Assembly (NCBI GenBank): GCA_950295325.1
Contig: OX485805.1
Span: forward strand, 56,260,758 to 56,324,757
Direction of reading: 5' to 3'
Source of the DNA: Polytrichum commune
Taxonomy: Eukaryota; Streptophyta; Polytrichopsida; Polytrichales; Polytrichaceae
DNA: 64,000 nucleotides
Position 1 is the stretch's first letter; every line of letters starts with the position of its first letter. The notes beneath the pieces are model-generated. The model was not told where the DNA came from. It saw nothing but the letters and a program-made list of their open reading frames with translations, and made no database searches. Shown here piece after piece: positions 4,901-64,000 of this stretch. A program made the position numbers and the translations under genes.

Positions 4901-7900
4901 TTACAAGCATTTCCAGGCAGAGACAGAGATCAGAGAACGGTCTTGCCATGTAAGTGAGATGCAGCCGCTGGTCTTTTGCAATCGGAAGCTCTCGCAATAT
5001 TGCCAGAGGAGTTGCTGGGCTTGGCTGTGGGCGTAGTGGCTGAGCTGCACATTCACAAACCCCGTTGACTGCATGAGGTTGATCCACCTTTCTGTGCTCT
5101 CGTGTCGCTCGGTGCGATCGGCGCCCTCGTACGCAACGATGTTCTCGACTTCTTTCGCGAAAAATGAGCTCTCGACTGTCAGCCGGTCCTGACAGTCACG
5201 TGGCATGGTTGCGTCCAAAGAGTCAAACACAGCACAGTAGAAGTGGAGAGCGTCCATAAATCGGGGGTGGAATGCAGGGCCGTTCAGAGCCGCGTCGTAC
5301 TCTGTCAATGTCACAAGCGCAGGGCAGAGAGATGACACTGATTTCAGCAACTGCTTGACAGACTGCGTTCCGTCATCTTTGAGCAGATGGTGGAGCTGCA
5401 ACATGAAGTTCACCACCAGCTTCTCATCAGGGTCGATTCGGAGACGATCCAGGGGGAAATCCTCAAATGGGGCGACAATGGGGCAGAACTCAAACTCAAT
5501 GTTGAACATTTCTGCAAAGAGAAGAAACTTTGGTTCAGGAATTGTGGGGATTCAGACCTCCTAGTTTGAGGTTCCCGGAGGCAATATAAGAACCATACAG
5601 TTAAACCCATGTATTTAGTAGTTCAGAGATATGTGGGAACCCTGAACCTTGAATCGAGAGCGATTGAGTGTATCAACTCTACAAATGAGGTGTTTGCGGG
5701 AAACGCTCAGGGTGTAATTATACAATGAGCATACCTCCTAAATTGTCATACTTTAGCATTCATACTATGACTAGGCCATACCTTTGAACATTCCGCTACA
5801 TCTACTGCCCATGCATAACACTCGCACACAAGACTTTAGCAACCTCAGTGACAGGTCACTAGTTGCATTCCAAATATCCTCCGAGGAATATTTCTGGGTT
5901 CGCATAAAAATGGCTAAAAGTTGCTGAAGTAATCATAATGCAGATATGGAAGGAACCTAGACATTTTTGTAGAGAGCGATTGAGTGTATCAACTCTATAA
6001 ATTAGGTGTTTGCTGAAAATGCTCAGGATGAAATCACACCTTTACTGTCAAAGTTGAGCATTCATACTGTGCCTAGACCATACCTGCAAACATTTCCACT
6101 ACACCTATTCCCTGTGCATAATTTTCTCTACCACAAAACTTGAGGAACCTCAGTGACAGGTTACTGGTTGCATTCCACATATCCTCAAATGACTATTTCT
6201 GAGCCTATATAAGAATGGCTGAAAGTTGCTTGAAGTAATTTTAGTGAAGAGGTGGATGGGAACTAAAACAACTGCATTCAAGGTAATTGAATGTATCAAC
6301 TCTAAAAGTAGGTACGTGCCGAAACTGCTCAGGATGTAAGCACACCTAAACTGTCATACTCTAGCATCATACTGTGCCTAGGCCATACCTGAGAACACTC
6401 CACTACGCCTACTGCCCATGCATAATTTTCTTGAACACAAAACTTGAGCAACATCAGTGAGAAAATGATGGTAGCATTGCAGATATCCTGCGAGGACTAA
6501 TTTCTGGGTTCATACAAAAATGGGTAAACCCATCCCAGTGAGAAAATGCAGATTAGGAGCATCTGCTCAGATTTGCTGACCCCTTCATAATTTGACATGA
6601 TACACTTAATCCAGGAACAAGCAGATAAGTAAAAGGCGACCATTTAAGGTTGACGCAGCTTACTGCCAATGCATGATACTCTTCAACAAAAAAACCTTGA
6701 GCAACCCCAGTAACAGGGTACTCGTTACATTGGAGACATCCTGTCAGGACTAATTTCTGGGTCCATGTAAAAATGGCTAAACCCCATCACAGTGCAGAGA
6801 GCAATTGCAGAATAGAGAAAGTTCTATAACCCATCACAGTGAAAAGAGTAATTGCAGATTAGGAGATTTTTTCATAACCCATCACAGTGCAGAGAGTAAC
6901 TGCAGATCAGGAAATTTCTAAAAATCCTCAGGATGTGCATGATGATACCTGCGAAGGATTGGAGCCTGTTGCCAGTTGCAAGGAGAGAGGCGGAAGCATC
7001 AGAATTAGAACCCGGTTTCGGGAAGCAGATACCCGTGATCCTCACCCTCGGGGTAGGCTTTCCTTTTGGCCTGCTGGCGAAAGCTTGCAACAATGCAGCC
7101 CACTGCACCCCATGGGCAACACCGAAATCCACAATATGCACCGCCTCACACCCCTGAACGGCCTCAAGAATCGCTTGGTTGGCTGTCAAATGAGCAAATT
7201 TCAAGTAAGGGCATGCGTCATTGAGCACTTGACATGCCACAAGCGAGTCCTTGATGTGTTGCCCCCCATCATCCACCACCGCAGCACCAGCAGATAAATC
7301 CGTCTCCCCCTTTGCTCTGTCCACTCGCTTAGTGAGAGCATCGCAGAAATAAGCTGCAACTCGTTGCATGGGGTCACCGAATGGGGATGACAGGTCTCGG
7401 AGTCTCCGAAGAGTTGAAAGAGCAGAGTGATGATTCTTCTCAATGAACTCCGCACATTCTAAGAGAAGATGCACAAGATGAACACTATGATCTTTGTCAA
7501 GGCCCCCACTGTAATCGCTCTCTGTTTCCCTTTCCTCAGCTTCCATGTGCGCTGTGTGAACCGTGTGCTCAGTATGCTCCGTATGCTCCGTATGTTCTGT
7601 ATGCTCTGTGTGTGCACTTGCATCGAAGCTTGGCTCATCTTGTAAGACATTCGGTCCCGCATGGCCAAGCTGCTGCAATGTGCGCAGCCTATGTTGCATA
7701 TCATACTCTTCTTGTCTCTGTAACGCCATGGCCGCTGCATCACCATTACCTTCGATTCCCCGAATTCGAAGCTCCCGGGGTAAGGGAAGCTCTCTTGGAA
7801 AAGCGAAGTCATTCTCCCAGGCATCCGAAACCACAACAGGAAGCGCTGAGCTTTCAGTGCTCTCACAAGGCTGGAGATCGCTCATCAAGTCCATCCACTC

Positions 7901-8611
7901 CGTTCCTGGTGCTGCACCATAGCCACTCCCTCCCCCAAACCCTACGTTGAAGTCATCCATCTTGAGAGGAGGCGGGGGCACATGATGCTGCTTCTGCAAG
8001 CTCTGATGACGATCCATGGTGCGGTGCATTGATTGCAACTCATCCAATTTCAATGGTGGCATCCCATGGTGATGATGCATCCCATGTGGGGAATGGGGGG
8101 AAGGGGATGCATTCACATTTGGATTTGCACTTCCCACATGTTGGCCTCTGCGAAGAGGTGAGTTAACCCTCTCAAGATCCCGAACGTGACGAGAGTGCTG
8201 CAAGTTGAGAGAGTCCAGAGGTGGCGAACACAGGTCCAGAACTGACGTTGGTTCTACCTGGCCATGGTGATTGTTGCTATTCCGCATGTGCGTATGATGA
8301 TGATGTTGCTGATGATGCATCTGCGTTTGCACTCTGCGGAGCGGACTAGAACCCGCAACTAGCTCCCCTTGTTGTTGCAAGGTTTGCGAATCCAGGGCGG
8401 ATGGCGAGCGGATGTCTGCGAGGTAGAGTGGGGACGTGCCATACTGAGGTTTGCTTGGAGAGTAGAATTGCGGTTTACTGCTATTGTTGCTATTGTTGTT
8501 GCTGTTGTTGTAGAGACATTGCGGATGCTGCTGTTGCTGTGGGAGAAGAGCGATCGAGGGGTCAGACCCGGATGACATGCACATTGTGGATCCGACATCG
8601 TTTCCTGCCAT
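4901..8611 (-). CDS. GRAS transcription regulator, SCL4/SCL7-like; two exons, join(4901..5511, 6949..8611)
   Basis: The product is a plant GRAS-family nuclear regulator, predicted 757 aa. Exon 1 (8611 to 6949) encodes a long disordered N-terminus with His-, Gln- and Asn-rich runs and an EHT tandem repeat. The GRAS domain starts near residue 375: LHRI around 375-470, VHIVD motif near 491-495, then RITGICFPKPG. A GT donor after TTCGCAG and an acceptor TTTGCAG at 5512 join codon-perfectly to give SFAEMFNIEFEFCPI. Exon 2 carries DPDEKLVVNFMLQLHHLL (PFYRE region) and the terminal SAW region ending SLISVSAWKCL. The order and wording match the SCL4/7 subfamily. The start ATG is followed by AGNDVGS and preceded by a telo-box leader. 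Oddities are a 1.4-kb intron made of tandem repeats and a duplicated 3' end. Family assignment is firm; the orthologue is an inference. Confidence 0.93.
5512..6948 (-). repeat. GRAS intron composed of roughly 310-bp tandem repeats
   Basis: Units beginning near 5661, 5974 and 6281 share the phrase GATTGAGTGTATCAACTCT, then a GCTCAGGATG block, ACTGCCCATGCATAA-type text and ACCTCAGTGACAGG. A fourth, partial and more diverged unit occupies about 6510-6900, with short repeats of CCCATCACAGTG. Divergence between units is modest, so the array is fairly old but recognisable. The ends are canonical GT and AG. Confidence 0.8.
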
Positions 8612-8739
8612 CTCATCAGCTGCTGCTGCTACTGCCGTCTACCTCCTCAGCTTTCATTTGCAATACCGATTTCGTTGCGAAGGTCGATGCCCTCTTCGAA
8701 TCTGCACATTCCAAACGACGACCTCCATGCGTAATGGGG

Positions 8740-25289: not shown

Positions 25290-25741
25290 TGTAGTTTCCA
25301 TTAAAAAGAGAGTATGTTAAGCTGGGAAATCGACTCAATTAGGTCGACTCAACCTAAAATGACAACATATTATCCTCATTTAGGTTGACTCAACCTAAAT
25401 TGACTAACATATTGTCCTCATTTAGGTCAACTCAACCTAAATTGACTAACATAATTATCCTCATTTAGGTCGACTCAACCTAAATTGACAAAATATTGTC
25501 CTCATTTAGGTCGACTCAACCTAAATTGACTAACATAATTGTCCTCATTTAGGTCGACTCAACCTAAATTGACTAACATAATTGTCCTCATTTAGGTCGA
25601 CTCAATCTAAATTGACAACATAATGTCCTCATTTAGGTCGACTCAACCTAAATTGACAAAATATTGTCCTCATTTAGGTCGACTCAACCTAAATGAGTCG
25701 ATTTCCCAGCTTAACATACTCTCATTTTAATGGAAACTACA
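25290..25741. mobile_element. foldback element with internal 43-bp palindromic array
   Basis: The ends TGTAGTTTCCATTAAAA and TTTTAATGGAAACTACA are inverted repeats that continue through GTATGTTAAGCTGGGAAATC. The core holds about nine units of roughly 43 bp, each containing TTTAGGTCGACTCAACCTAA, itself a near-perfect palindrome with a short loop. A short CGT may be the target duplication. Confidence 0.8.
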
Positions 25742-50726: not shown

Positions 50727-51047
50727 GGCCTGGAGAAAACAAAAACTAGTCGTTAGGTTGTAAAAGTGATGCCATTAAAAGTTGTATGTATTCTTTTTCA
50801 CAAAGAGATGAGGAAAAATTGACTAGTACAAGAACGCTACCTATAAAAAAGATCTCACTTATAATTCTGCTACATTCAAACAAGTACATGATTATTCACA
50901 TATTGTGAAGAGCTCATCAATTCACAAGCACAACAGGAACTCAATCATTAAATTGCAAGCACTTCGAGGCAAAAGATTGCAAGTAGGACTAATCTAGAAA
51001 TCTAACTTGCTATGGATGTAAATGAAACTCATACTTACCGTTGGTAT

Positions 51048-51388
51048 CTCGGGGGGGGGGGTAGTGTGTTAAAAAGTTAAGGATATAGGTGCGAACAACC
51101 ACTATTTTATAGGGGGGTATTACTTTCAATTCTCTTCTTTTTTTCACATGCTATCATTATGTAAATTTCTACTTTGGGTTAATAGAAAAATGGCTTGCAT
51201 TACTTATAATTCCAAATTACCTATTATTCCATACCCTATAGTACTTTAAAGATGTCCAGTGCCATTTTTGATACCCTATATTACTCTTAAGTCCATTTAT
51301 AATTTTTAGCCCCCATGTTTTTAAAATACCCTATCATTTGTTCGCACGTATATTGCTACTCCAACCAATGACTACCCCCCCCCCCGAG
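51048..51388. mobile_element. hAT-type MITE, CTCGGGGGGG TIRs, 8-bp TSD
   Basis: This is an inverted relative of the element at 24876-25212: it begins CTCGGGGGGGGG and ends CCCCCCCCCCGAG, 341 bp. Exact direct repeats GTTGGTAT flank it (51040-51047 and 51389-51396). It sits about 9 nt upstream of the predicted donor of the 5' UTR intron of the 537-aa orphan gene, so it would be part of that transcript's leader. Confidence 0.92.
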
Positions 51389-51794
51389 GTTGGTATACTC
51401 TTACAACTTCTCTCGTATTGTGTGTCCATAATTTTGATGCTTTCGCTTATGCTCTGGTGTTCTCACCAACGCTCCTTCTAATCAAACACTATAGTCGGTA
51501 ATTGGAGACTTTTTGTTGATTTTGAGACTATTTAAGGACGTGGCTTTCACATTTGTAGGAAGGAAAACACTAAAAATATGCTATGTTCCCAATTTTGGAA
51601 ACAAATAAGAGACTCAAATGCATGGAACTACACATTAAAAATAAGAAAATGGGATATATGAAAACATTTGCATATGGAAAATCAATATCATATTTATTGA
51701 ATAGGGGTTGAAGTACAAAATGCAAGTGGAATATCCAATATTAGGCGAAAGTCCTAGAAACATAATTCCACAACTACATGTATGTTAATATAGC

Positions 51795-52679
51795 CTATAC
51801 GTTCGGATCATGATTACGACTCACTACTTTTGCTTTTGCAATACTATTATTAGCATTTACGGTCGTTTCACGTTCTTTTGCTTTCATGGCCTCCATGGCT
51901 CTAAAGATCTCGGGTCCGCGGCTGTAACCTTGTTTATTTGTCGACCCCGAATATGTGCCATTTGCCCATATTTGCCGACCCCCTACCAAATAAGTGGAAT
52001 ACGAATGCGTTTGGGAAACCGAACGTCTTGCACTCTTCCGTAGGGCCAAACAACGATCAGACTCGCAAGAAGCAGTCTTCAGTGTTCGCCTATCCAATGA
52101 CGAAGTCGAGGATGAACGGCCCACATTCATGTGTATTGGGGTCTGAAACAATGACCATAAATACATATAATGACGTGGGTTAGTATAAGTTACGGATGGA
52201 AGTCCGAAAAACCCAAGAATATGAAATCCACTAATGCACGGAAATCATGAAGGAAAAACTTGAGAATGCCAATAATTGGGCACCTTGGCCTGCGGGGCAG
52301 TGGTTTGAGCTTCTGCGACATCGAGGGGGGCCACAAGCACAACAAGGACGCTCGTAAACGCCGGGACATCAATTTGGGGTTCATCCATACAAAGGCGTCT
52401 GGTCGACCGCGAGTTTCGAACGTGCTTCTCATTGCGGAGGGGAGATGGAGATGGAGATGGAGCGTAATTGAGTTTTGCAACCTTTGGAGGAGGGCTATCG
52501 ACAACTCCGTCTTCAAACCCCGAGTCCTTGGAGTAATCAACAGCAGAGGCGGCATCGACGGCTGAAAATTGAAATAGTGAAGGCATTGAAATGTCGGTCA
52601 CACCAATGGAAAGGGAGCTGGGGCCCGGTTTAGATGCACACATGCCATCGACGAGACTTTGGGATGCTTGGTGAGGCAA
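51795..52679 (-). CDS. Ser/Pro-rich orphan protein, two terminal exons (partial)
   Basis: Exon 52284..52679 (acceptor CTTAG) and exon 51795..52142 (acceptor TTTCAG) join in phase: SLVDGMCASKPGPSSLSIGV and YAPSPSPSPLRNEKHVRNSR lead into TPIHMNVGRSSSTSSLDRR, ending NHDPNV. The segment is Ser/Pro/Arg-rich and apparently disordered, with no known domain. The initiating exon is not identified; the upstream HAD-like frame ends 89 bp away with a stop. It could be the tail of a larger alternatively spliced transcript. Confidence 0.45.
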
Positions 52680-52767
52680 CTAAGACACAAAAATACATTT
52701 ACAAAATAGGGGGAGAAATGTTAGATATAAACATGGAGAGTCCAAGTACAAACCCAAAAAGCAGTTC

Positions 52768-53535
52768 TCATATTAATTTATTGAGTTTGGCATAGCCGTA
52801 CAACCTCCTAAATTCCTCATCTCTTGGGCCTAGAGGCCTATTGCCAATGGGGTTGGAGAGGACAAAATCCGGGACACTTCCGGGGTGATAGGCAAGCCTC
52901 CTAATGTAGGGTCCTAGTTCATTCTCTAGAAAGTTGTCATTTCTATCACTCTCCCAAGGATCCGGGAATATGCAACTGCCCGGGGGATTGAGAATACTCT
53001 TTGCCGGGCTGTCGTCAATGAGGAGCGTGTTCTCCGGGGTGGGCCAACAACCGTGGGGCACCCCCTCCAACATAGGGACGCCCACCCAAAGGTTCTTCCT
53101 CAGTACATTTAGGAATTGAGGCCCTCGGCCTCCTCCGACCTTGGGTACAATGTTGCCATTACGGTCAAAAAAGTTATCACAGTGTTCTTGACCGAGAAGC
53201 AAGCATGGCATTGCGAGTTCTCGGAAAAGGAAACCGACGATGGCCTTCGTGTTGTCCATGAGCATAGAGCTCCAGATGATGACATGGGCCAACCCAAGGA
53301 CCTCACGAAGGAAGCACCTCAACCCCGGCCGGGCCCGTACAACCTTCTTGTTAATGAGAGTATCGAACTGTCCGCCGTAATCCATGTCTTGTGGACTACG
53401 GAAGGGACCCTTCGACACACTATTGGAGATATGCATGGAATGACAAAGCACCCCATTGAGGTCAAATATTATGAACGGTTTCCTCATGGGCCGGCTTGGT
53501 CTTTCAGCAGGGTTGCGACATATCTCCGACGGACC
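52768..53535 (-). CDS. FCP1/NIF-like HAD phosphatase domain protein (exon)
   Basis: The frame after a CATCACAG acceptor reads MRKPFIIFDLNGVLCHSMHI, then VRARPGLRCFLREVLGLAHV with IWSSMLMDN, and later TLLIDDSPAKSILNPPG. This is the FCP1/small CTD phosphatase-like HAD fold: nucleophile motif at DLNG, Ser after IW in motif II, and the DDSP motif for Mg2+. The second Asp of DxD is Asn (DLN), as in some plant FCP1-like proteins, so acid/base catalysis may be altered. The stop at 52768 looks genuine. A first exon was not found in the 200 bp before the upstream gene's stop, so the model is partial. Confidence 0.7.
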   Translation of the reverse strand, partial: GPSEICRNPAERPSRPMRKPFIIFDLNGVLCHSMHISNSVSKGPFRSPQDMDYGGQFDTLINKKVVRARPGLRCFLREVLGLAHVIIWSSMLMDNTKAIVGFLFRELAMPCLLLGQEHCDNFFDRNGNIVPKVGGGRGPQFLNVLRKNLWVGVPMLEGVPHGCWPTPENTLLIDDSPAKSILNPPGSCIFPDPWESDRNDNFLENELGPYIRRLAYHPGSVPDFVLSNPIGNRPLGPRDEEFRRLYGYAKLNKLI

Positions 53536-53831
53536 CTGTGATGGAAAATACTATCTAGGTGAATGGTACTACCCATGAAAACCAATTGACAAGCATGCAC
53601 AAACTCAACAAACAAATATAAGGCAAAAAGAATACGAATACGCAGTTCAAAATTTTTGTATTAATGTGCTTGGTTTAATACATTTCGCGAATAATTTACA
53701 TTGTCACAAAAGGCCTCCCCTAAAACTAATTGAATCTATGCTGGCAAAATTGCATCCACCCGCCGGGCGAAGTCGAGCATCGAACTCGACAATATGCACA
53801 CGCCACGAAGTTGGCAAACAAGGAAGTTTTG

Positions 53832-53957
53832 GACGCGCGTCCGTAACGTGGGAGGCAAGCTCAAAGGTGGATTACATCTTTCAGTGGAGAGGCCCTCGCC
53901 AGCAGTGCCTCCCTCACCAGGCCCCATCGTGGGCACAGGTTCCGGACGCGCGTCCGC
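53832..53957. repeat. two exonic copies of the GGACGCGCGTCC palindrome
   Basis: GGACGCGCGTCCGTAA at about 53832 and CCGGACGCGCGTCCG at about 53942 sit inside the open frame of the large orphan gene, where they encode LRTRV and ADARPEP on the minus strand. They share the core of the intronic palindromes. Confidence 0.85.
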
Positions 53958-55369
53958 AAAATTGTGCAAGCTATCCTCCACCACCAAGGCACCTCCAGCC
54001 GCTTGCGACCCCTGGGTATCGACATGAGGTTGATCTTCATCTGTGGTGTCTTGGCTGCCCCGCCTATCTTCATCTTCTTGGCTGCCAATGGTTGTGATGT
54101 CTTCAATGGCGCCTTTCTCGTGAGCACCTGCCGTATAACGTGCAGGTCTCTCCTCCTCTCGTACGGTATGAGAGGAGGGCTCTGGGGTGGCGGCAACCTG
54201 GGGAGAGGGCGGGACATACAAGGCGGGGGCTGGATAAGTATGCTCTGGTATGTACACCGTATGGCTACTAGACGGAGGCCGCATGAGAGTGGGAGGCATC
54301 GACATGCCGGCTTCGGGAGCTGCATACATTACTGGGGGTCTTGCTTGCAAGCTCTGCATGAGGCTCATAAATTGTTGGCTCTGGGCCAAGAATTGTTGAT
54401 TTTGAGCCATGAGATCGGCGTGCCTTCGAGCAGACTCCAACCTAGCCTCCTCCATCTCAGCTTGGATGGCGGCCATCTTTTTGGCGTGCTCCTCGTTAGC
54501 TTCTCGAAGCCGTTAGTCAAGCTCTTCCTTCATTCTCTTCTCCAGTTTCTCGTCCAATTCGGCCACAGACTTCGGCTCTTTCTTCACCTTGCCAGGTTCA
54601 GAAGGCAACGCAGAGAGGGCATTGTACATCCTAACCTCATCCTCGTCTTCATCAGAGAGTTCCAAGACGGCGCCTTCAGGGTACTCGTTGTAAGGAGTCT
54701 TCTTCCTCTGTCGACAACTCTCACGGTATGAGGCGATATCCGGCCTCAAAATCAACTCCAGCACATCTCTACCCTCCATAGGTGGTAGCTCTGCCTGTTC
54801 AGAGCCCCCTCCAGATGAGGCTGTGCATCCGGCTTCTGTCGCAACGTCCACATCCTTCTCTGCCATAAGCCCAGCAGCACGCGATGGACCCGCAGTGGAA
54901 GGAAACCCAACTCGAGAAGTGGGAGTCCCAAAGGGAGAGGGAATAGGGGTAGGATGGACCCTTATTGGAATGAAGTCTTCATGCGCCCCCTCTGTATTCA
55001 TGCGGTCTTCGCCCAAGACAAATTGATGTGGATGAACAGGATCACGAACAAGGCCGGGCACGTGATCTTGTCTGGTTGGCTGCTCTCTTGGGGAGACGGG
55101 CTCTTGGTCTCCGTCACTGTCCCACTCTGTCGCAGGAGTTCCCTCTTCTCTTGAGGCAAGAGGCACCACAAGATGGGAGGTAAGGACATCGATGATGTCT
55201 TCGATATCCATTTTGGAGGCAAGAACCCTATGAGTATTCGCCTCATCCATGTCGCGAGCCTCCACAAACGAATTTACCTGCAACCCAAGCATCTGCACCA
55301 AAACAAGGAAATTCTAGTCATTCCATTGTTGAGAGTAAGTATCAGGACAAATATAAACATGAAGCAGTG

Positions 55370-55585
55370 CAATTTACGGACGCGCGGCCGTAAATTTGCA
55401 CTGCATATGTGGTGGACAATGTTACGGACGCGCGGCCGTAAATTTGCACTGCATATGTGGTGGACAATGATACGGACGCGCGGCCGTAAATTTGCACTGC
55501 ATATGTGGTGGACAATGTTACGGACGCGCGGCCGTAAATTTGCACTGCATATGTGGTGGACAATGATACGGACGCGCGGCCGAAA
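55370..55585. repeat. intronic 48-bp array of CGGACGCGCGGCCG palindromes
   Basis: Cores start at 55377, 55425, 55473, 55521 and 55569, exactly 48 bp apart, separated by near-identical spacers (TTTGCACTGCATATGTGGTG). The array lies wholly within the 55293-55632 intron of the large orphan gene. The core is a CGCGGCCG variant of the 22-bp palindrome used elsewhere in the cluster. Confidence 0.95.
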
Positions 55586-56980
55586 ATTTCAATTCAGATG
55601 GAGCATGGAAAGAGGTGCATACAAGTACTTACCAATGCCGCATAAACAAATTTAGTGCCTCCGAAGACGTTGTAAACTATTTCACTCATCACAGTCACAG
55701 CCTTCAAGACTCCAATATAAAAATCCATTCGGAGCTCGTACGCCGGGTAGAGTGCATACATAGTCTCCGCGACAAGCTTCTTGGGGTGTGGTGGTAGCAA
55801 CGAGTATACTTTCTTGAACACGTTCTGCGCTTTGATAGGCATCCGCCCACTTGGTAAAGACTTGTGTGTCAAGAAATAAAGTGCCAAAGCCCCGACCTGC
55901 TTCGCCCCTCTTGCCTCTTCAATAACACTGATCCCTTCCGTCTTCGCGGGGATGTATGTGTTGTGGTAAAGATCGTATTGGAGGTTCATCGTCGATGTGT
56001 AAAGCTGGACGACCGATGCGGACCTCTCTTGATCTACAATCCAGAGCCACACATTTGGCTCAAAGAGGGCAGGCAACCGATAGCTCTTGAAGGCCTTGAA
56101 GAAGTTGTCATAGAAAGCGGTCCCGCTAGCGTTTTGTCTCCAAGATCCGGGAAATGCACGGAAATCAAATAGTGCGAACGGACAACCCCGGGGGTCATCT
56201 CTCACAGAGGCTCTTGAAGCATGTGTGTCCCATGTGCCAAACTTCAAGGCCGATGTCACTGTGCAGAATCTTGCGACCCCTCCGAATTTTTCTTTCTTTT
56301 TTCTGTCAAGAAAATGCACGTACAACGCCGTCTTTCTTTCGTCGATAGACCCTTTCTTCTCGTTCCTCCTAGATCGTTGGGCTAGGAAGGGAGATGCGCC
56401 TCTTATCAATGATCGCATGGAGACTGTGAGGCCAAACCCACCACCCTTAAGCGTCCTAGTCCGGATGATGGGTTTGTGAATCACATGTGTGGTATCAAAT
56501 CTCGATGATATAAGAAATATCCTTCATCTCAGTGAACTTTCTAGTTCTAAGGTTCATGATGTTTTATTAATACTTGTTCCTTGAACATATGAGGCATTAG
56601 CCTTCTCCAAGGTCCATCCCGCGGCTTTGGCCACGCATACCCGTAAAGACATTCCCCTAGCACCTTTAATCTTTACTTCCTTTGCCTTGTCATTGCTAGG
56701 ATCAACCACATTCTCCATTCTTGAACAAGTAACTTATTTTGACCAAGAAGATGCAAGTGTTTAGAAACACTGTTCTTGATGATCCACCCCAATTACATTT
56801 ACTAGCAAACCACACCTCACGCTAATTAGTCCAATAAATCTAACACTTACATATGTGCTAGGATAATCTAAATGCCTAACTTGAGCCATGCTTAGTTTGA
56901 ATGATAGTACTCGATTTGAGCTAAGCTTTAGTCACCCAAGCATGCTCCCTACTACCCACTACTTCTTGAGACCTAACCAC

Positions 56981-57284
56981 CCTCGGCTGCTCCAGCAGCT
57001 GGCTCGGTTTCAGGTCCTCGGCTGCCCAGCAGCTGGCTCGGTTTCAGGTCCTCGGCTGCCCAGCAACTGGCTCAGTTTCAGGCCATCGGCTGCCCAGCAG
57101 CTGGCTCGGTTTCAAGCCCTCGGCTGCTCCAGCAGTTGGCTTGGTTTCAGGTCCTCGGCTGCCCAACAGCTGGCTCGGTTTCAGGCCCTCGGTTGCTCCA
57201 GCAGCTGGCTTGGTTTCAGGTCCTCAGCTGCCCAACAGCTGGCTCGGTTTCAGGTCCTCGGCTGCCTAGCAACTGGCTCGGTCC
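56981..57284. repeat. 34-36-bp minisatellite, nine copies
   Basis: Units of CCTCGGCTGCCCAGCAGCTG followed by GCTCGGTTTCAGGT repeat nine times with light divergence. G/C content contrasts with the A/T-rich flanks. The array is open in two plus-strand frames but resembles no known protein. Confidence 0.9.
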
Positions 57285-57465
57285 AGCAGTGTTTGGACCG
57301 AAGTCTAATGAATCCTTCAAACCATTCTCCCTTCTAGTCATTAACTTAACATTCTTCTAACCTTTCAACTCATAATTAATCTATCCTCCTACTAATTTCC
57401 TCAAGTTAATAACTAATCACACGTGGTTTTTTTTTCCTAATCATTCTAAGGAATCCCTACACATG

Positions 57466-59271
57466 TGTGAGCCCAAAATTGATGCCCACATTGGTTGTTA
57501 ACACTTGTAAAACATTACAAATGGTGTTTTGGTGATTTATGATTATTCACAAAAATATAAAAAGAGTGAAGCTTGAAAAAAACTTAGTTTGAAGCATTAG
57601 GCTTTTGTGGAGTGGATTTAAGTAGGAGAAGGACAAACCTTGGTAAAGTGTGGTAGGTAGAAAGCCAAGGTTAGTTAAATGTTTGAATTATGATCATTAT
57701 TAATCATTTGAGGGAGGAAGGCTTAGGAGATAGGATAAGAGCCTACAAAGTAGGAAAAAATCTCGAGGACTTATCGTGAGCCTTAAGGGTGCTCACTCCC
57801 TCAAACTCACTATATAATTCCTCATTCTTCCCTCATTCATCCTCTCTTTCCTTCGTGCTCCTTGGCACTCCACGTGTTATAAGTGTGGGTGCGTGGGAAG
57901 CAAGATAGGAGCACGTGTGTGTGCAAGGATGTAAGGTTAGGAGCCAAGGCTAGTTGGCCTTGAAGAGGGCTTGACCTCTTGTTAGTAATAGTTGGGCGTG
58001 AATGATTTAAAGTTCAATTTATGGCTTTGTTTGAATACTTGGATTTACATTGATTAGCCTTATACTTATGCGGATGTGCAAAGTTTCTTATTGGAGCATT
58101 TAGTTTTGTTGGACTTCATATGAATTTTTGAGAGCCAAAAAACCGAGACTATGTCCAAACTTCCAAAAACTAGTGAAAAAGTGTAGATTCAAAGGGAACA
58201 GCGTAGAATTGCGACCATATACTTTGTGGCAGTAAAAATATTATTGCATATTCATGTAGAGGACTTCATTACCTATCCATGGATACCAAGAACTCATTTT
58301 TTGGACTTCATATGAATTTTTGAGAGCCAAAAAACCGAGACTATGTCCAAACTTCCAAAAACTAGTGAAAAAATATAGGTTCAAAGGGAACAGCGTAGAA
58401 TTGCGACCATATAATTTGTGGAAGTAGAAATATTATTACATATTCATGTAGAGGACTTCATTACCTATTCATGGATACCAAGAACTCATTTTTTGGACTT
58501 TATATGAATTTTTGAGAGCCAAAAAACCGAGACTATGTCCAAACTTCCAAACTTCGAGATTAAGGAGTGTAAGAAGACATAGTATAGACTTGGCTAAGTT
58601 GCGTATATTCCAACGATAGATTGGAATCATACATTGTGTTACAAAGAGAGAAATCTCTACATGTCATTATAAACTTCTCCATTCGGGCTAGGACGAAATT
58701 GAAGGGTAGAGGCTTTTTGGTGACAACATGAGAGAGATTGAGAGAGAGAGACTAGCTCCTTCACTTCACTACAACTAATCAATCTACACACGTGGCTCAA
58801 GCTCTTAAGAGCTCGCTCTCTTGAGAGCACTAAATAGAGAGAGAGGAAAATGAGAGAAAAAACACCTTAAGTAGCAAAGAGGGAGAGAGGGAGAGAGGGA
58901 GAGAGAGGTGAGGATAGGGTGAGAGGATTAGCACCCCCAATTACAATCCTTTAACCTTCTCCTCCAAAGTAGGGACTAATCCCCATCCACCAAGCTTCCT
59001 TCTTCCTAAACTACCAAGGTGGATCCAAAAGTGGGCATTTAACCCGTGGAGCTCACCTTGCTTCACCTTACCCCCTACTCACATTATCAAGGCATACTCT
59101 TATTGAATTCAACCTTGAAATAATCACACAACACATTCTAAAGCCTAAACTTAAATCCAAACCACACCTCACTTTTTTTATGTTTTGTGAATAATCATAA
59201 CACATCAAAGTCAAACTAAAATTGGTTTCGAAGAGTTAATCACCACATGTGGGCACCATTTTGGGCTCACA
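57466..59271. mobile_element. 1.8-kb element with long imperfect TIRs, class uncertain
   Basis: The left end TGTGAGCCCAAAATTGATGC and the right end, read inverted, TGTGAGCCCAAAATGGTGCC match, and the inverted similarity continues patchily for about 100 bp (TTATGATTATTCACAAAA). No clean target duplication is visible. There is no transposase. TG...CA ends also allow an LTR origin. It truncates the ParB-like gene: that frame ends within four bases of its boundary. Confidence 0.6.
58109..58552. repeat. 192-bp tandem repeat, 2.3 copies
   Basis: Units starting at 58111, 58303 and 58495 share GGACTTCATATGAATTTTTG and CCGAGACTATGTCCAAACTT. They lie inside the 1.8-kb TIR element and are highly similar. 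Confidence 0.9.
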
Positions 59272-59880
59272 GAGACCCATTGATGTGGTATTCCTCCTTG
59301 AGCGTCCTCCAGTTTTCCCACATTATCTCACCATCTGTATTAGTGAGGTTGTGGGAGGGCAGCAGCTTGCTAATCTTCCTTATAGCCATGGTCTTTTTCT
59401 TCTTGTATTCGCACCATTCCTTAATGTGGTACGTAGAAGGCTTCATGTGCTTCGGCTGCTTCAGGAAGATTTTGGGGTAAAGCAGTATCCTCCTCGGAGT
59501 CTCCAACAGGATGTGTTGTGCCGCTCTGTAAAGCTCGGAGTCGAACAATCCTTGGAGGGGACGAAGAACTCTCTCAGAATAGATGGCACTTTAACCTTCG
59601 AATCGCTCTTGTACGTGTTTTCAGCATCCGGGTTGATAAGATCTCCGTTGTTGTGGGTATCGAATAGGCGCAACCAAATTGCCCATGTCTCTTCTGTGGC
59701 AGTGATGAGCTTAAGTTCCCCCTTCAGCTCTTGCACCGTCTTCATACCGCTCGTCTTCATGTCAATGCTGGAGAACTTTGTCAAGATGGCATTGCTGAAT
59801 GTCTGCAATGCCATGTATTACAAGAAATCAGCAGAGTTTAAATTGAAGGAATTAAAGAATTGGAAGGAGATGGGAAGAAG

Positions 59881-59902
59881 TTTACGGACGCGCGTCCGTA
59901 AA
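59881..59902. repeat. single 22-bp perfect palindrome in a 117-bp intron
   Basis: A core of ACGGACGCGCGTCCGT with TTT/AAA arms forms a perfect 22-bp palindrome 17 nt downstream of the minus-strand splice donor of the ParB-like gene. Confidence 0.95.
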
Positions 59903-60952
59903 ATTATACTGAGACATACCTGCCATTTGGAATTCTTGATGACTGCATTCTCCCTCTCTTTTGGGGGACAATTGTGCTCCACCCACAAGGTCCTTCCAGC
60001 CACGATGTTGGCAGCCCATGAAGCCTCGAACTGCCTCACTTTATTCCCTTGGTTCATGAAGGCAAATATTGCGATGAGCTGGTTCGAGTCTTTGGAATGA
60101 ACGACGAATGCCTTCCAGTATCGGATTGTTTCTTTTAAAGGGCTCTTCCACTCATCGTCCTCGAGGAGAGCTTTTGCAGCCATCACGCTATGTTAGCCGT
60201 CGATTATGTAGAACTTTCCATCTTTGAGAATTGGCCAATTTTGCATTGTGACTTCAACCACAGGATCCTTTGGTGTCACACATATCGTTTGCCTATCAAA
60301 CTTGGAGTTGTTTATAATGTTATTCATTTGCCACCACACCCCGCTCTCTTCTTTGGCACGAGTATTCATACTCTCCGTGCCCTTGTGGCATTTGTAGACA
60401 TCCACATCAAACGTGAAATATTTGCCAAGCGGCCAGCAGCCCTTTGTCTTCTCGTCGAACTCTTGGAAAATCTTTGTGGATAGTTCGGCATCCAGACGTT
60501 GTCCTTTCTTGAGAAGTGGGGCGACTGTAAGAGTAAAACTCACATCTGGACCCTCTGTTAGCCCAGACGACTCCATCTGTGAGTGGGAGCGTTTACTGGC
60601 CTGCTTGCTCCCTCTTGATACTCCACTGTGTAAGGGTCTGGATGTTTCTGGCACGTGTTTAGGAACACGCTTAGGTCGTTCAGGAACAACTTGTTTTTTC
60701 TTCTCTTTTCCTTTCTTGGCCTCCAGTAAGGCCCCATTTATTCTTGTCACATTGTTCAAGAGACGTCCAAGCCGTTTACCCGTCCAGGGTGCATTGCATG
60801 CATAGTCAGCGAATTCAGTCTGTAAATTGAAGCAAGACGCATCTGGGCTGGCATTCTCACATTCATTTTTGTTGAATGGATGGTACAACTCGTGCAAAAT
60901 GAATTTTTGTTGAATGAATGTGATTCTATCATTCTTCTTTTCAAGGTCAATG

Positions 60953-62261
60953 CTCGGGGGGGGGGCACTCCCTTGTATATTTTGCATACACCTACGATAA
61001 TGACCTATTAAAATGGGGGCTATTTACCTATGAGAAAGGATTATAAGGGATGCTAATTTTTGAAATAATGGTAAATTGTTGTGATTATTTGCACCCTATT
61101 GGTAATTATAAATTCTTGGATGGTTGATTTAATGGTACCCTATATTACTTATATGTAATTTTTTCCCCTGATTGCCCCCATTCCTTAAAGTGTATGATAC
61201 AGTAGAATTCTCGTTAGAAGCACATGTACAGAGTAAGAGAAACAAACATTTATTAGGGTTTAGGGTCCAGGGTCACACTGAAGTCCGGGCAAAGCAAAAC
61301 ACTAAACAATAACAACAAAAGATTGCAATTACATGTCATTAAGCAACACGAGCCAACGAATAAAAGTTGTGTTGGATAACACAGTTAGAAACCTTGAGGT
61401 CTTAGGGAACAAGCCAACCACATGTGTCTCAAAGTCACATTTACAAGGTTTGCAGAAGCCCTACAATTGATGCCTTGATCTTCCAATCCTACACATTGGA
61501 GGAAAATCCCACGCCATGCAAGCAAAATCCACCTAAACTAGCTAGGATACCATTTACACATGTGGGAGATATGAGGGTACTCGAACTGAAATGACTATTA
61601 CAGATCTCAAGGTATACTAATGATCATTCAACCCTTTTTCCAAATTATATCTCCACATGTGTGAGATAGTACAAATTTAGCAGGTTTTATTTTTTATTTG
61701 AAATGAACTCATTCAATGAGTTTGCATCTACCTCATCTAAGGTGTAGATTTTGCTAGTTGATTCATACACTAGAGACACAGTTGAGATAATAGCATCCAC
61801 ATCAACCCACACACATTCACTCTCAACATACTTATATTTGTTGAGACCCGGCTGTTTTTTGAACCAATGGAGGTAAGTCATAGCAGTTGGGAAGAGCGTT
61901 TCTCTATTTCCGTTCTGGACTGCACGTTTCATCAAGTCAATGGGTTGCCAACAATTGCCCCACTTAGTACCAACCTTCACCCTTATCTTTTGAACCCTTC
62001 CTATATAGAACATGCCATATTTTGGTAGCAAAGTATTTAATTTTTGAAACTATCGCTTTTTCTCCATGCTATTTTATATGTACCACTTAGGTAATTTAAT
62101 CATGTTTTTCAAATGCTATATTACATATAATCATGTTTCACAATCCTAGAGCACCCTATACTACATCTAATAATTTTACAAATTTTACGCCAAATTTTTA
62201 TACAAGACCCTATATTTTATCGCACGTAGTTCCTACGTTTTTCGCCAGTGCCCCCTCCGAG
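60953..62261. mobile_element. hAT-type element, CTCGGGGGGG TIRs, 8-bp TSD
   Basis: The element begins CTCGGGGGGGGGGGCACTCC and ends CAGTGCCCCCTCCGAG, with exact direct repeats GGTCAATG (60945-60952 and 62262-62269). It belongs to the same TIR family as the 337-341-bp MITEs but is 1309 bp long. No hAT transposase is seen. It contains a 114-residue minus-strand frame, described separately. Confidence 0.92.
61687..62031 (-). CDS. 114-aa frame carried inside the hAT element
   Basis: The frame reads KIRVKVGTKWGNCWQPIDLM, then LFPTAMTYLHWFKKQPGLNK and ECVWVDVDAIISTVSLVYES. It is not an hAT transposase. The style resembles the N-terminal half of the surrounding orphan proteins, so it may be a captured gene fragment. 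There is no known family and no splice partner. Confidence 0.4.
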   Translation of the reverse strand: MLPKYGMFYIGRVQKIRVKVGTKWGNCWQPIDLMKRAVQNGNRETLFPTAMTYLHWFKKQPGLNKYKYVESECVWVDVDAIISTVSLVYESTSKIYTLDEVDANSLNEFISNKK

Positions 62262-62544
62262 GGTCAATGACAACATAATCACCTTGGGCTACCGCACACT
62301 CTACTGTCCACGTTTTAACCTTGACCCACTTCTCTGATTCATCTATATCTGCTTTTATTTGGTAGGCAAATCTAAGGACAAATATCTCCTTGTCATTTTT
62401 TTCTACAATAACTGTCCAGTTATCTACAATGTCATCGCGCGGCTTGTAATGGTCGTTATGGCTGATATCTTTTATTGCGTCTGGAAGCGGAGGATGGAAA
62501 AGCTCTGCGAACATATCAATTGCAGGTCTTCTTATAGATTCCAT

Positions 62545-63583
62545 CTGCAAGAGTAAAATATACAAGCCAGTATTAAGGTCAAGGAATGTAGAGCCTATCT
62601 TACGAACGTGCGGTCGTAAACTTTTTGCGTACCCTCTTGTAGAATGTGGTTTCTACACATGTATTATGTTATCGTAAGTTTACGGACGCGCGTCCTTAAA
62701 CTCCTGCGGAATCACCCTTTGCGTACCCTCTACTATAGAATGGTTTTTTTTCACATGTATCCAGAAGTCTTTGTTTCTATAATTTACAAATATAATAGGT
62801 TCCTCACTCTTAGATAGCCCTCATTTACGGACGTGCGTCCGTAAATTTTTTTGAAAATGTTTTGTTGCAGTTTTATTTTGTAGAGATTATATGTCTAGAA
62901 TTATAATATTACTTGCGTAATCTTTGATGTATTATAATATTGTGATGTTTTCTCTACCTTGTTTACGGACGCGCGTCCGTAAACAAGGCACTTGTATTAT
63001 GTAATATGAGATTGTGATGTTTTCTCTACAAAGTTTACGGACGCGCGTCCGTAAACACTGCATATATATCATATATGAGATATCTTTTGCTTAGATATCT
63101 CAAGTTTACGGACGTGCGTCCGTAAACTTTTCATAGATGTCATGTGAGAGAATTTCTTTTTAAAATATCTCTACAATTTACGGACGTGCGTCCGTAAACT
63201 GTTCACACATAGTGTGATGCTTATGCACAGAGTCCCTTGAGGTTTACGGACACGCGTCCGTAAACTGTTCACACATAGTGTGATGCTTAAGTACAGAGTT
63301 CCCTGAAGTTTACAGACGCGCATCCGTAAACTCCAATTCATTTTTTAATTATTATGAATTTAATTACTTCACAAAATTTTGGTTAATGTGTCTTTGGATA
63401 TTCTTCCGAAATTTTCGGAATGAGGTTTTCTTTTCATCTGCAATGCTCATCTTAGATTGGAATGCAACATGGATTTGCACTGCAAATAAGAATGTATCAG
63501 GTGTTGCATTGCAATAGCAGATCCTACACTCCAAACTAAGAAGAATGTAGCATTTCAATTTGCAATGTACTAGAAACACTTAC
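62545..63583 (-). repeat. 5' intron of the ParB-like gene, about nine palindromes
   Basis: An intron with donor CAAAG/GTAAGT (63583) and acceptor TTGCAG (62545). Inside it, copies of the ACGGACGCGCGTCCGT palindrome or near variants occur near 62599, 62678, 62823, 62957, 63033, 63102, 63177, 63242 and 63307. The 62957-62988 copy is a perfect 32-bp palindrome. Variants such as GGACGTGCGTCC differ mostly by CG to TG or CA changes. The last few are 65-73 bp apart and partly share spacers (TTCACACATAGTGTGATGC). Confidence 0.9.
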
Positions 63584-64000
63584 CTTTGTACAATGAACGC
63601 TGCTAAACCACAGCTGCAGCTAGGACAGACTGCAAATTAACAATGAAATTGAAGTTAGAAACCTCTGGTAATGGAATGTGCACATTCAAGAATCAATTAA
63701 ACTGTGTGTTGCTCCTAAAATACATCAAACCCACAAAAAACCCTACTACAAAGATTGCACTGGATTGAACATTGACATCAGATAGAAGTGAACAAAGCAA
63801 AACATATGATTTCTTAGAACTTGGACAAAGTGAATTGAAATGAAGTGAAGACAATTACAAACTGGAGGGAGGAGCACTCTAAAACAACTGAAAATACTCC
63901 AACCCTAAAACCCTTGCAACAACTAAAACTACTCCAATAATGTCCTAATGAAACTCCAAGCAAAAAAACTACTCAATTTCTGATGGTACTTGCAATTGTG
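63584..64000 (-). other. leader region of the ParB-like gene, window end
   Basis: Sequence upstream of the donor at 63583 is A/T-rich and has no convincing coding frame; it probably holds the non-coding first exon and promoter. A TTTGCAG that could be a further acceptor lies near 63630. The window ends before a promoter can be defined. Confidence 0.4.

Follow-up and report, generated by a model that had tools for sequence, protein, structure and literature searches.

What does a family of CpG-rich palindromes do in the introns of a cluster of seemingly orphan genes? The question is raised by a stretch of 64,000 bases of Polytrichum commune DNA (the window), in which an initial annotation noticed such a cluster. 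The answer developed here is that the cluster is one copy of a large DNA transposon, a point missed in that annotation, and that its palindromes form arrays specific to the element family, which may be read by a protein of the element itself.

Palindromes in the Window

A scan of the whole window with the 16-base core ACGGACGCGCGTCCGT at up to 3 mismatches gives 16 matches, all within 53,829-63,327, compared to a chance expectation of 0 and no match in 100 shuffles. The 22-mer within 5 substitutions, scanned over 51,001-64,000, yields 17 sites, the 17th at 62,599. A general 22-base pattern with up to 4 substitutions, applied to the whole window, yields 18 sites at 52,189-63,330, the 18th being a degenerate palindrome at 52,189, with none below that position. 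The clustering at 53.8 to 63.3 kb described in the initial annotation, with no copies elsewhere in the window, thus holds with slightly wider limits (52.2 to 63.3 kb). The 17 sites comprise nine in a 5' noncoding region, one in a 117-bp intron, five in an intron, one in an exon, and one in the next intron, which bears out the described placement in introns and one exon, the introns being read from GT-AG sites and reading frames. Nine further sites of the same element lie past the window end, giving a total of 27 in this copy (copy W).

The arrays are tandem duplications with fixed periods of 48, 95, and 135 bp inside one element. Changes of CG to TG/CA, to which most of the variation had been ascribed, fit part of the residual variation; the five-copy intron array, however, is filled by the variant ACGGACGCGCGGCCGT, which differs otherwise.

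A Large DNA Transposon with Internal Arrays

Comparison of copy W with four clusters on contig C1 (copies A, B, C, and D) shows that the similarity breaks off sharply at both ends in copies A and W, for which both flanks were read. Copy B has the same right end as A and W and lacks the left part. The ends are 28-bp terminal inverted repeats, AACACTATATTCGTTAATTGGAGACTTT in copies A and W, which have 1,316 and 1,315 matches in the genome at up to 3 mismatches. Target duplications of 4 bp flank 10 of the 11 elements with both ends read, namely, all 8 readable pairs (10 tried, 2 with one end not found), copy A, and F2, an element of the type II group described below (atct/atct); the exception is copy W (acat/tgat). 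The elements measure 17 to 21 kb (A, 17.35 kb; F2, 18.2 kb; W, 21.2 kb). In the 408-Mb genome, copies are present on all seven large contigs according to a search with the ParB-like exon, in which 150 matches were scored of 771 candidates, protein counts from the genome searches being lower bounds. From the terminal repeats, the target duplications, the numbers of repeat matches, and the scored ParB-like matches, it follows that the supposed orphan gene cluster is one copy of a DNA transposon. An assignment of the palindromes to introns of ordinary host genes is rejected.

A complete element contains two divergent genes: a putative transposase gene with a DUF7869 domain and a second gene with a ParB-like part, two further blocks, and a NIF-phosphatase-like part. 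Approximately 20 to 30 palindrome copies lie between the two genes and in their introns. In copy A, the 23 sites are distributed as 9 upstream of the transposase gene, 6 upstream of the second gene, 1 in exon 3 of the latter, and 7 others (two of them degenerate), which, read against the frames, fall in introns or between coding blocks. The site nearest to an end of this copy is degenerate and lies ∼0.7 kb from the right end, while all others are at least 2.3 kb from either end.

The exact core occurs 1,097 times in the genome and 1,394 times with a free center (reversed control, 1), and the listed copies fall in clusters of ∼10 kb. The first 50 of the 1,097 sites are all on contig C1; a ParB-like match is found no more than ∼11 kb away from 49 of them, and the remaining one belongs to a small site group (L043). 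A link to these genes, for which the initial annotation had proposed a genome search, is thereby found; a uniform distribution unconnected with them is not what is seen. The palindrome is confined to the cluster as far as the window goes, and in the genome it is a widespread repeat tied to that cluster.

A Switch of Both Palindrome Arms between Two Element Groups

Recognition by a protein of the element itself predicts that diverged elements carry different palindromes. The ParB-like search showed a group of elements at ∼48% identity over 127 residues, and the three members fetched carry TTTACGAACGnnCGTTCGTAAA instead of the palindrome of copy W; the two groups are termed type II and type I, respectively. 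The change from type I to type II is that from ACGGACGnnCGTCCGT to ACGAACGnnCGTTCGT, with G replaced by A in the left arm and C by T in the right arm, both together. In the stretches read of 8 type II loci, all 130 sites are of the A..T form. The 224 sites of 18 type I loci comprise 185 G..C, 14 A..T, 24 hybrid, and 1 other. These counts leave aside L061 (no site), L044 (a decayed copy), and the first 2.5 kb of copy S (the end of a neighboring type II element), and the sites are not independent, copies A and B (99.5%) and F1 and F3 (97%) being near duplicates. The genome totals are 1,394 for G/C and 5,602 for A/T (reversed control, 4), compared to 145 and 129 for the two hybrids (controls, 3 and 1), many of whose listed sites occur at one recurrent place ∼5.4 kb downstream of the type II ParB-like exon. 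The pyrimidine form has a single genome match, a simple repeat (reversed control, another common word: 88). Exon 3 contains an in-frame palindrome close to its 3' end in both groups; the peptide there is DARP for type I but NARS for type II, and it looks as if the DNA has been kept there and the peptide has not.

Three observations concern the type II group further. In 23 type II copies, the score over 218 residues is the same (483.8 bits), and because of this identity the group shows signs of a recent burst. A region of contig C1 (L042, C1:640400-646400) contains dense type II arrays, many at 33- to 34-bp and 93-bp spacings, with GG or CC centers. Next to a type II element, L044 (C1:57033349-57034557) is a decayed ParB-like copy with 38% identity and 17 stops, perhaps representing a third old clade.

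Symmetry and Constraint of the Sites

Palindromes of both types consist of two 10-bp half-sites around a 2-bp center, which shows almost no base preference in type II and is CG in most type I sites (166/224). Mismatches between the arms (pairs 4 to 9) were counted in 154 distinct type I and 105 distinct type II sites, setting aside B, F3, L053, L061, L062, L044, and the first 2.5 kb of S. G.U and A.C mismatches number 46 and 43 in type I and 12 and 7 in type II. Since G.U is hardly more common than A.C, the symmetry looks more like recognition of DNA by a dimer than like RNA pairing.

The palindromes also appear to be constrained as such. When copy A is compared to C, D, and W, differences at CpG positions number 3/154, 1/60, and 2/75 within palindromes and 17/115, 27/78, and 22/84 within spacers (15%, 35%, and 26%), a contrast present in three of five copy comparisons, for which sites were picked in copy A only and the array alignment can be ambiguous. 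The suggestion that the palindrome itself may be what is kept therefore gains support, its CpGs being nearly frozen compared to those of the spacers in these three comparisons.

Further DUF7869 Families with Arrays of Their Own

DUF7869 matches occur at 1,492 candidate places in the genome, 150 of which were scored. No match was obtained in 14 control genomes, a control of little weight, as the five named among them are prokaryotic. Outside groups I and II, nine loci were examined, seven of them among the top eight DUF7869 matches and thus not a random sample. A palindrome finder detects a separate palindrome array in six of the nine. L064 and L072 contain CCACGGGTGnnCACCCGTGG (genome count, 819; reversed control, 0), and L065, L067, L068, and L071 contain GGTGAGGCAnnTGCCTCACC (counted in the genome as GGTGAGGCAYRTGCCTCACC, 150; reversed control, 0). 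The finder reports no array in L066 (rearranged, its second gene adjoining the DUF7869 part), L070 (no open reading frame [ORF] of 140 amino acids), and L069. When the loci are grouped by family, four of five families have an array, each a different one, and the palindromes of families III and IV are unrelated to those of I and II and occupy an equivalent place. Block shuffles (5 per locus, in 2-base blocks, which do not keep the dinucleotide content exactly) give at most 2 array members, and seven slices of the window give 1 or 2, except for one slice with 7, which contains a tandem array.

For the third palindrome, DUF7869 matches adjoin listed sites at C1:19.88, 33.99, and 48.45 Mb, and the other listed clusters have no DUF7869 match among the 150 scored. 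In family III, the transposase gene directly follows the array, and one site falls between the two ORFs of this gene. The family IV transposase is interrupted by an identically placed in-frame stop (HRK*RLPP) in L065, L074, and L077, a position at which L075 has R.

Genes and Structure of the Window Copy

The structure of copy W was assigned from ORFs, GT-AG sites, reading frames, and comparison with related copies, as follows.

51485 to 64000 and on to G000:C3:56333430, second gene on the minus strand: DNA transposon copy W, from comparison with copy A and the terminal repeats
51485-51512, no strand: terminal inverted repeat AACACTATAGTCGGTAATTGGAGACTTT, with its partner at G000:C3:56333403-56333430
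51795-52679, minus strand: 3'-terminal coding blocks of the second gene (ORFs 51795-52244 and 52245-52679), with counterparts in copy A
52189-52210, no strand: degenerate palindrome at the border between the two 3' coding blocks
52768-53535, minus strand: NIF exon (NLI-interacting-factor-like, HAD phosphatase; PF03031, E = 2.2e-12), with the acceptor taken from GT-AG
53536-53875, minus strand: putative intron 3 (GT-AG and frame), with one palindrome at 53826-53847
53876-55292, minus strand: exon 3, fast evolving, with the in-frame palindrome at 53939-53960 (peptide FADARPEP)
55293-55632, minus strand: putative intron 2, with five palindromes in a 48-bp register at 55373-55586
55633-56424, minus strand: exon 2, 3' part (ORFs and copy comparison)
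56425-59271, no strand: 2.85-kb stretch within exon 2, which copies A, C, and D lack (alignment breaks)
59272-59802, minus strand: exon 2, 5' part (ORFs and copy comparison)
59803-59919, minus strand: putative intron 1 (117 bp), with one perfect palindrome at 59881-59902
59920-60952, minus strand: exon 1 (ParB-like), 3' part, with a DGQHS-type motif (PHROG ParB-like, E = 0.02 in copy A)
60953-62261, no strand: 1.3-kb stretch that splits exon 1 and is not present in copies A, C, or D (alignment breaks)
62262-62544, minus strand: exon 1, 5' part, with the ATG directly after a splice-acceptor-like AG
62599-63330, no strand: array 2, nine palindromes upstream of the ATG, the site at 62599 being of the A..T type

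The ParB-like gene and the large orphan gene, initially annotated as two, look like one gene, since 56,425-59,271 and 60,953-62,261 are missing from related copies, copy D among them; the stretches are either insertions in W or losses there. The first of them holds 34-bp and 192-bp tandem repeats.

The transposase gene, on the strand opposite to the second gene, has two exons, and its assignment rests on DUF7869 (E = 5e-40) and motifs of the D...DN...HTHEDID type. An AlphaFold model of its catalytic part, built with 8 sequences, is poor (pLDDT, 50); it gives no Foldseek match at an E value of 0.001 or lower and no VIA-align Z score of 5 or more. The second gene consists of the ParB-like exon with the DGQHS motif, a second conserved exon, the fast-evolving third exon, and the NIF-phosphatase exon, which were joined according to GT-AG sites and reading frames. 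Its ParB-like label comes from PHROG 1033, matched over 35 residues in one of the two exon 1 proteins scanned. All Pfam matches of exon 1 are below the cutoff (YEATS in 3 of 13 proteins, best E = 0.015; DUF6551 in 3 of 13, best E = 0.11), and NCBIfam gives one row at an E value of 0.15. Searches of the PDB with profiles of exons 1 and 2 return weak rows (best E values, 0.5 and 0.06), including one ParB-C chain for exon 2 at a nonsignificant E value of 0.56.

Within the groups, dN/dS ranges from 0.04 to 0.45 for all parts with unsaturated dS and from 0.04 to 0.34 for the second gene, values on which the proteins would appear to be, or to have been, under purifying selection. Between types I and II, identity amounts to 76 and 84% for the transposase parts, 61% for NIF, 44% for exon 1, 53% for exon 2, and 33% for exon 3. 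In copies A, C, D, S, and W, exons 1 and 2 show a dS of 0.19 to 1.7, higher than that of the transposase and NIF parts in the same pairs (0.10 to 0.33); the central region of the element is perhaps an older module that copies have exchanged. In both element groups, the active-site motif of the NIF part is FDLNGVL, compared to the usual phosphatase motif DxDx(T/V), so that this part may be inactive.

Two other features of the window lie outside the element. At 25334-25694, a 41-bp tandem array with TTTAGGTCGA-c-TCAACCTAAA as an inverted repeat in its unit possibly belongs to another element as its palindrome array. A GRAS-domain gene in two pieces occupies 4904-8638 on the minus strand; together with a plastid-type rbcL, it indicates a land plant.

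Comparison with Known Systems

To our knowledge, the VANDAL elements of Arabidopsis provide the best-studied case of sequence-specific anti-silencing by transposons. These are Mutator-like transposons. According to Hosaka and colleagues (PMC5735166), VANC21 binds short motifs in tandem repeats, located in introns and upstream regions, the motifs of VANC6 differ, and the VANDAL transposase is more conserved than VANC; related elements with different motifs, the C type and the T type, are described there and in PMC10398659. The P. commune element likewise shows element-specific arrays in introns and upstream noncoding regions that differ between related elements and an accessory protein that varies more than the transposase. 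In contrast, the MULE transposase and the DUF1985/DUF287 accessory protein, the domains of VANCs, have no counterpart in Pfam scans of the exons and ORFs of both genes, in which DUF7869 and NIF are above the cutoff and no MULE, DUF1985, or DUF287 row appears; the place of these proteins is taken by the DUF7869 transposase and the ParB-like/NIF second gene. The sites differ as well: VANC motifs have 8 to 9 bases, with those of VANC21 in one orientation, compared to palindromes of 16 to 22 bases here. In layout and evolution the two systems are closely parallel, with different protein families.

A second comparison is offered by Sola1-1_Ec32 of the brown alga Ectocarpus, described in PMC12477816 as a giant transposon of 21.5 kb with an opposite-strand ParB-like gene fused to a methyltransferase. 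In the view of those authors, proteins of this kind may bind the transposon that encodes them and modify it epigenetically; the stem "palindrom" begins no word of the main text. Both elements are giant DNA transposons with a ParB-like gene on the strand opposite the transposase, and they differ in the DNA methyltransferase domain, which is not seen in P. commune. A 4-bp target duplication is reported for Sola2 in PMC3627910.

Among other systems, bacterial ParB/parS likewise combines a ParB protein with palindromic site arrays, although the homology here is at the level of a motif only. Sola1 elements produce 4-bp target duplications. CACTA/Spm transposons possess subterminal repeats bound by TNPA and thus repeated short sites inside a DNA transposon; the sites described here are instead internal, between divergent genes and in introns. 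In the open-licence PubMed Central literature, judged by titles and the beginnings of abstracts, nothing close was found beyond the VANDAL and Ectocarpus papers, and no paper searched contains "DUF7869"; no claim is made that the arrays are unpublished. New here is the switch of both palindrome arms in an element group that is ∼44% identical in the ParB-like exon. The best reading is that the palindromes would serve the protein of each family in recognizing that family's own copies, much as the VANC anti-silencing motifs serve VANDAL transposons, but with another transposase and another accessory protein.

Function of the Palindromes

The explanation favored here, with a probability of about 0.5, takes the palindromes as sites of self-recognition. 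The second gene product would bind the palindromes of its own family as a dimer on the noncoding DNA of its own element, and this binding would keep its own copies open for transcription and transposition by sequence-specific anti-silencing or activation. As the specificity of the protein drifted, the arrays would be rewritten by substitution and tandem duplication, resulting in a private code for each family. The second gene is probably the better candidate for the changed specificity, as is VANC in VANDALs, because it has diverged more between the types (33 to 61% identity) than the transposase. A bolder version, which we hold to be unlikely, makes the element a transposon-borne eukaryotic counterpart of ParB/parS: the ParB-like protein would load at family-specific arrays, spread over the element, and mark its chromatin as self, the private code being rewritten as a whole when the protein changes.

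Several results weigh against self-recognition by the second gene product. The ParB label consists of a short motif and a PHROG match at an E value of 0.02, a Pfam scan of 13 exon 1 proteins gives no ParB row, and an AlphaFold model of exon 1 with 13 sequences (pLDDT, 41) provides no usable fold. No demethylase or chromatin domain reaches the cutoff in the scans of either gene. L069 has both divergent genes and no detected array and is a true exception. The second genes of I/II and IV are only weakly alike in profile comparison; E values for the I/II second gene against those of IV and the array-less family are 0.072, 0.0025, and 0.019, and because of the weakness of these matches no homology is claimed. 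The CpG contrast is not clear between copies A and S (3/37 versus 2/19) and is reversed between the near-identical copies A and B (3/149 versus 0/185). Type I elements retain A..T sites, 11 of the 14 being found at one place 74 to 77 bp before the first ATG, and F2 has a hybrid site (L044:1014) just outside the stretch counted, of a kind that recurs in type II elements. Finally, types I and II are separated by a single evolutionary switch, which cannot by itself tell which protein reads the site.

The DUF7869 transposase itself could be that protein, with the palindromes serving assembly of the transposition complex or autoregulation of the promoter. The arrays upstream of its gene, the site in its intron, and the arrangement in family III fit such a role, but the lack of sites in or adjoining the terminal repeats of copy A and its standing as the best-kept protein between the palindrome types make it rather doubtful. 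Still less probable is a host transcription factor or chromatin protein for which the palindromes would be promoter or enhancer elements of the transposon. The arrays do lie upstream of both genes; one host factor, however, should impose one motif, and related families in this one genome have four different palindromes, and types I and II differ in both arms at once.

The initial annotation had considered a protein-binding site, a hairpin, a recombination signal, and a very small mobile sequence, and the protein-binding site is the best supported among them. Hairpins in RNA or single-stranded DNA, acting in splicing, small-RNA production, or recombination, would suit inverted repeats that often lie in introns, yet we consider them very improbable, as the arm statistics show no clear excess of G.U over A.C, a count that speaks against RNA pairing only; an RNA hairpin is thus not supported, and a recombination signal is conceivable but without support. 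A very small sequence inserting repeatedly into introns is scarcely credible. It would account for kept palindromes between differing spacers, but the arrays arose as tandem duplications with fixed periods within one element, and the in-frame palindrome near the end of exon 3 is shared by both groups.

Implications

It appears that at least four families of a transposon type different from VANDAL are present in large numbers in one land-plant genome, each with a palindrome code of its own. If self-recognition is the correct reading, the strategy would seem to have arisen more than once, and coevolution of protein and site would be directly testable, for example, with the type I protein on type II sites. 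Should binding be confirmed, the families would provide orthogonal protein-site pairs.

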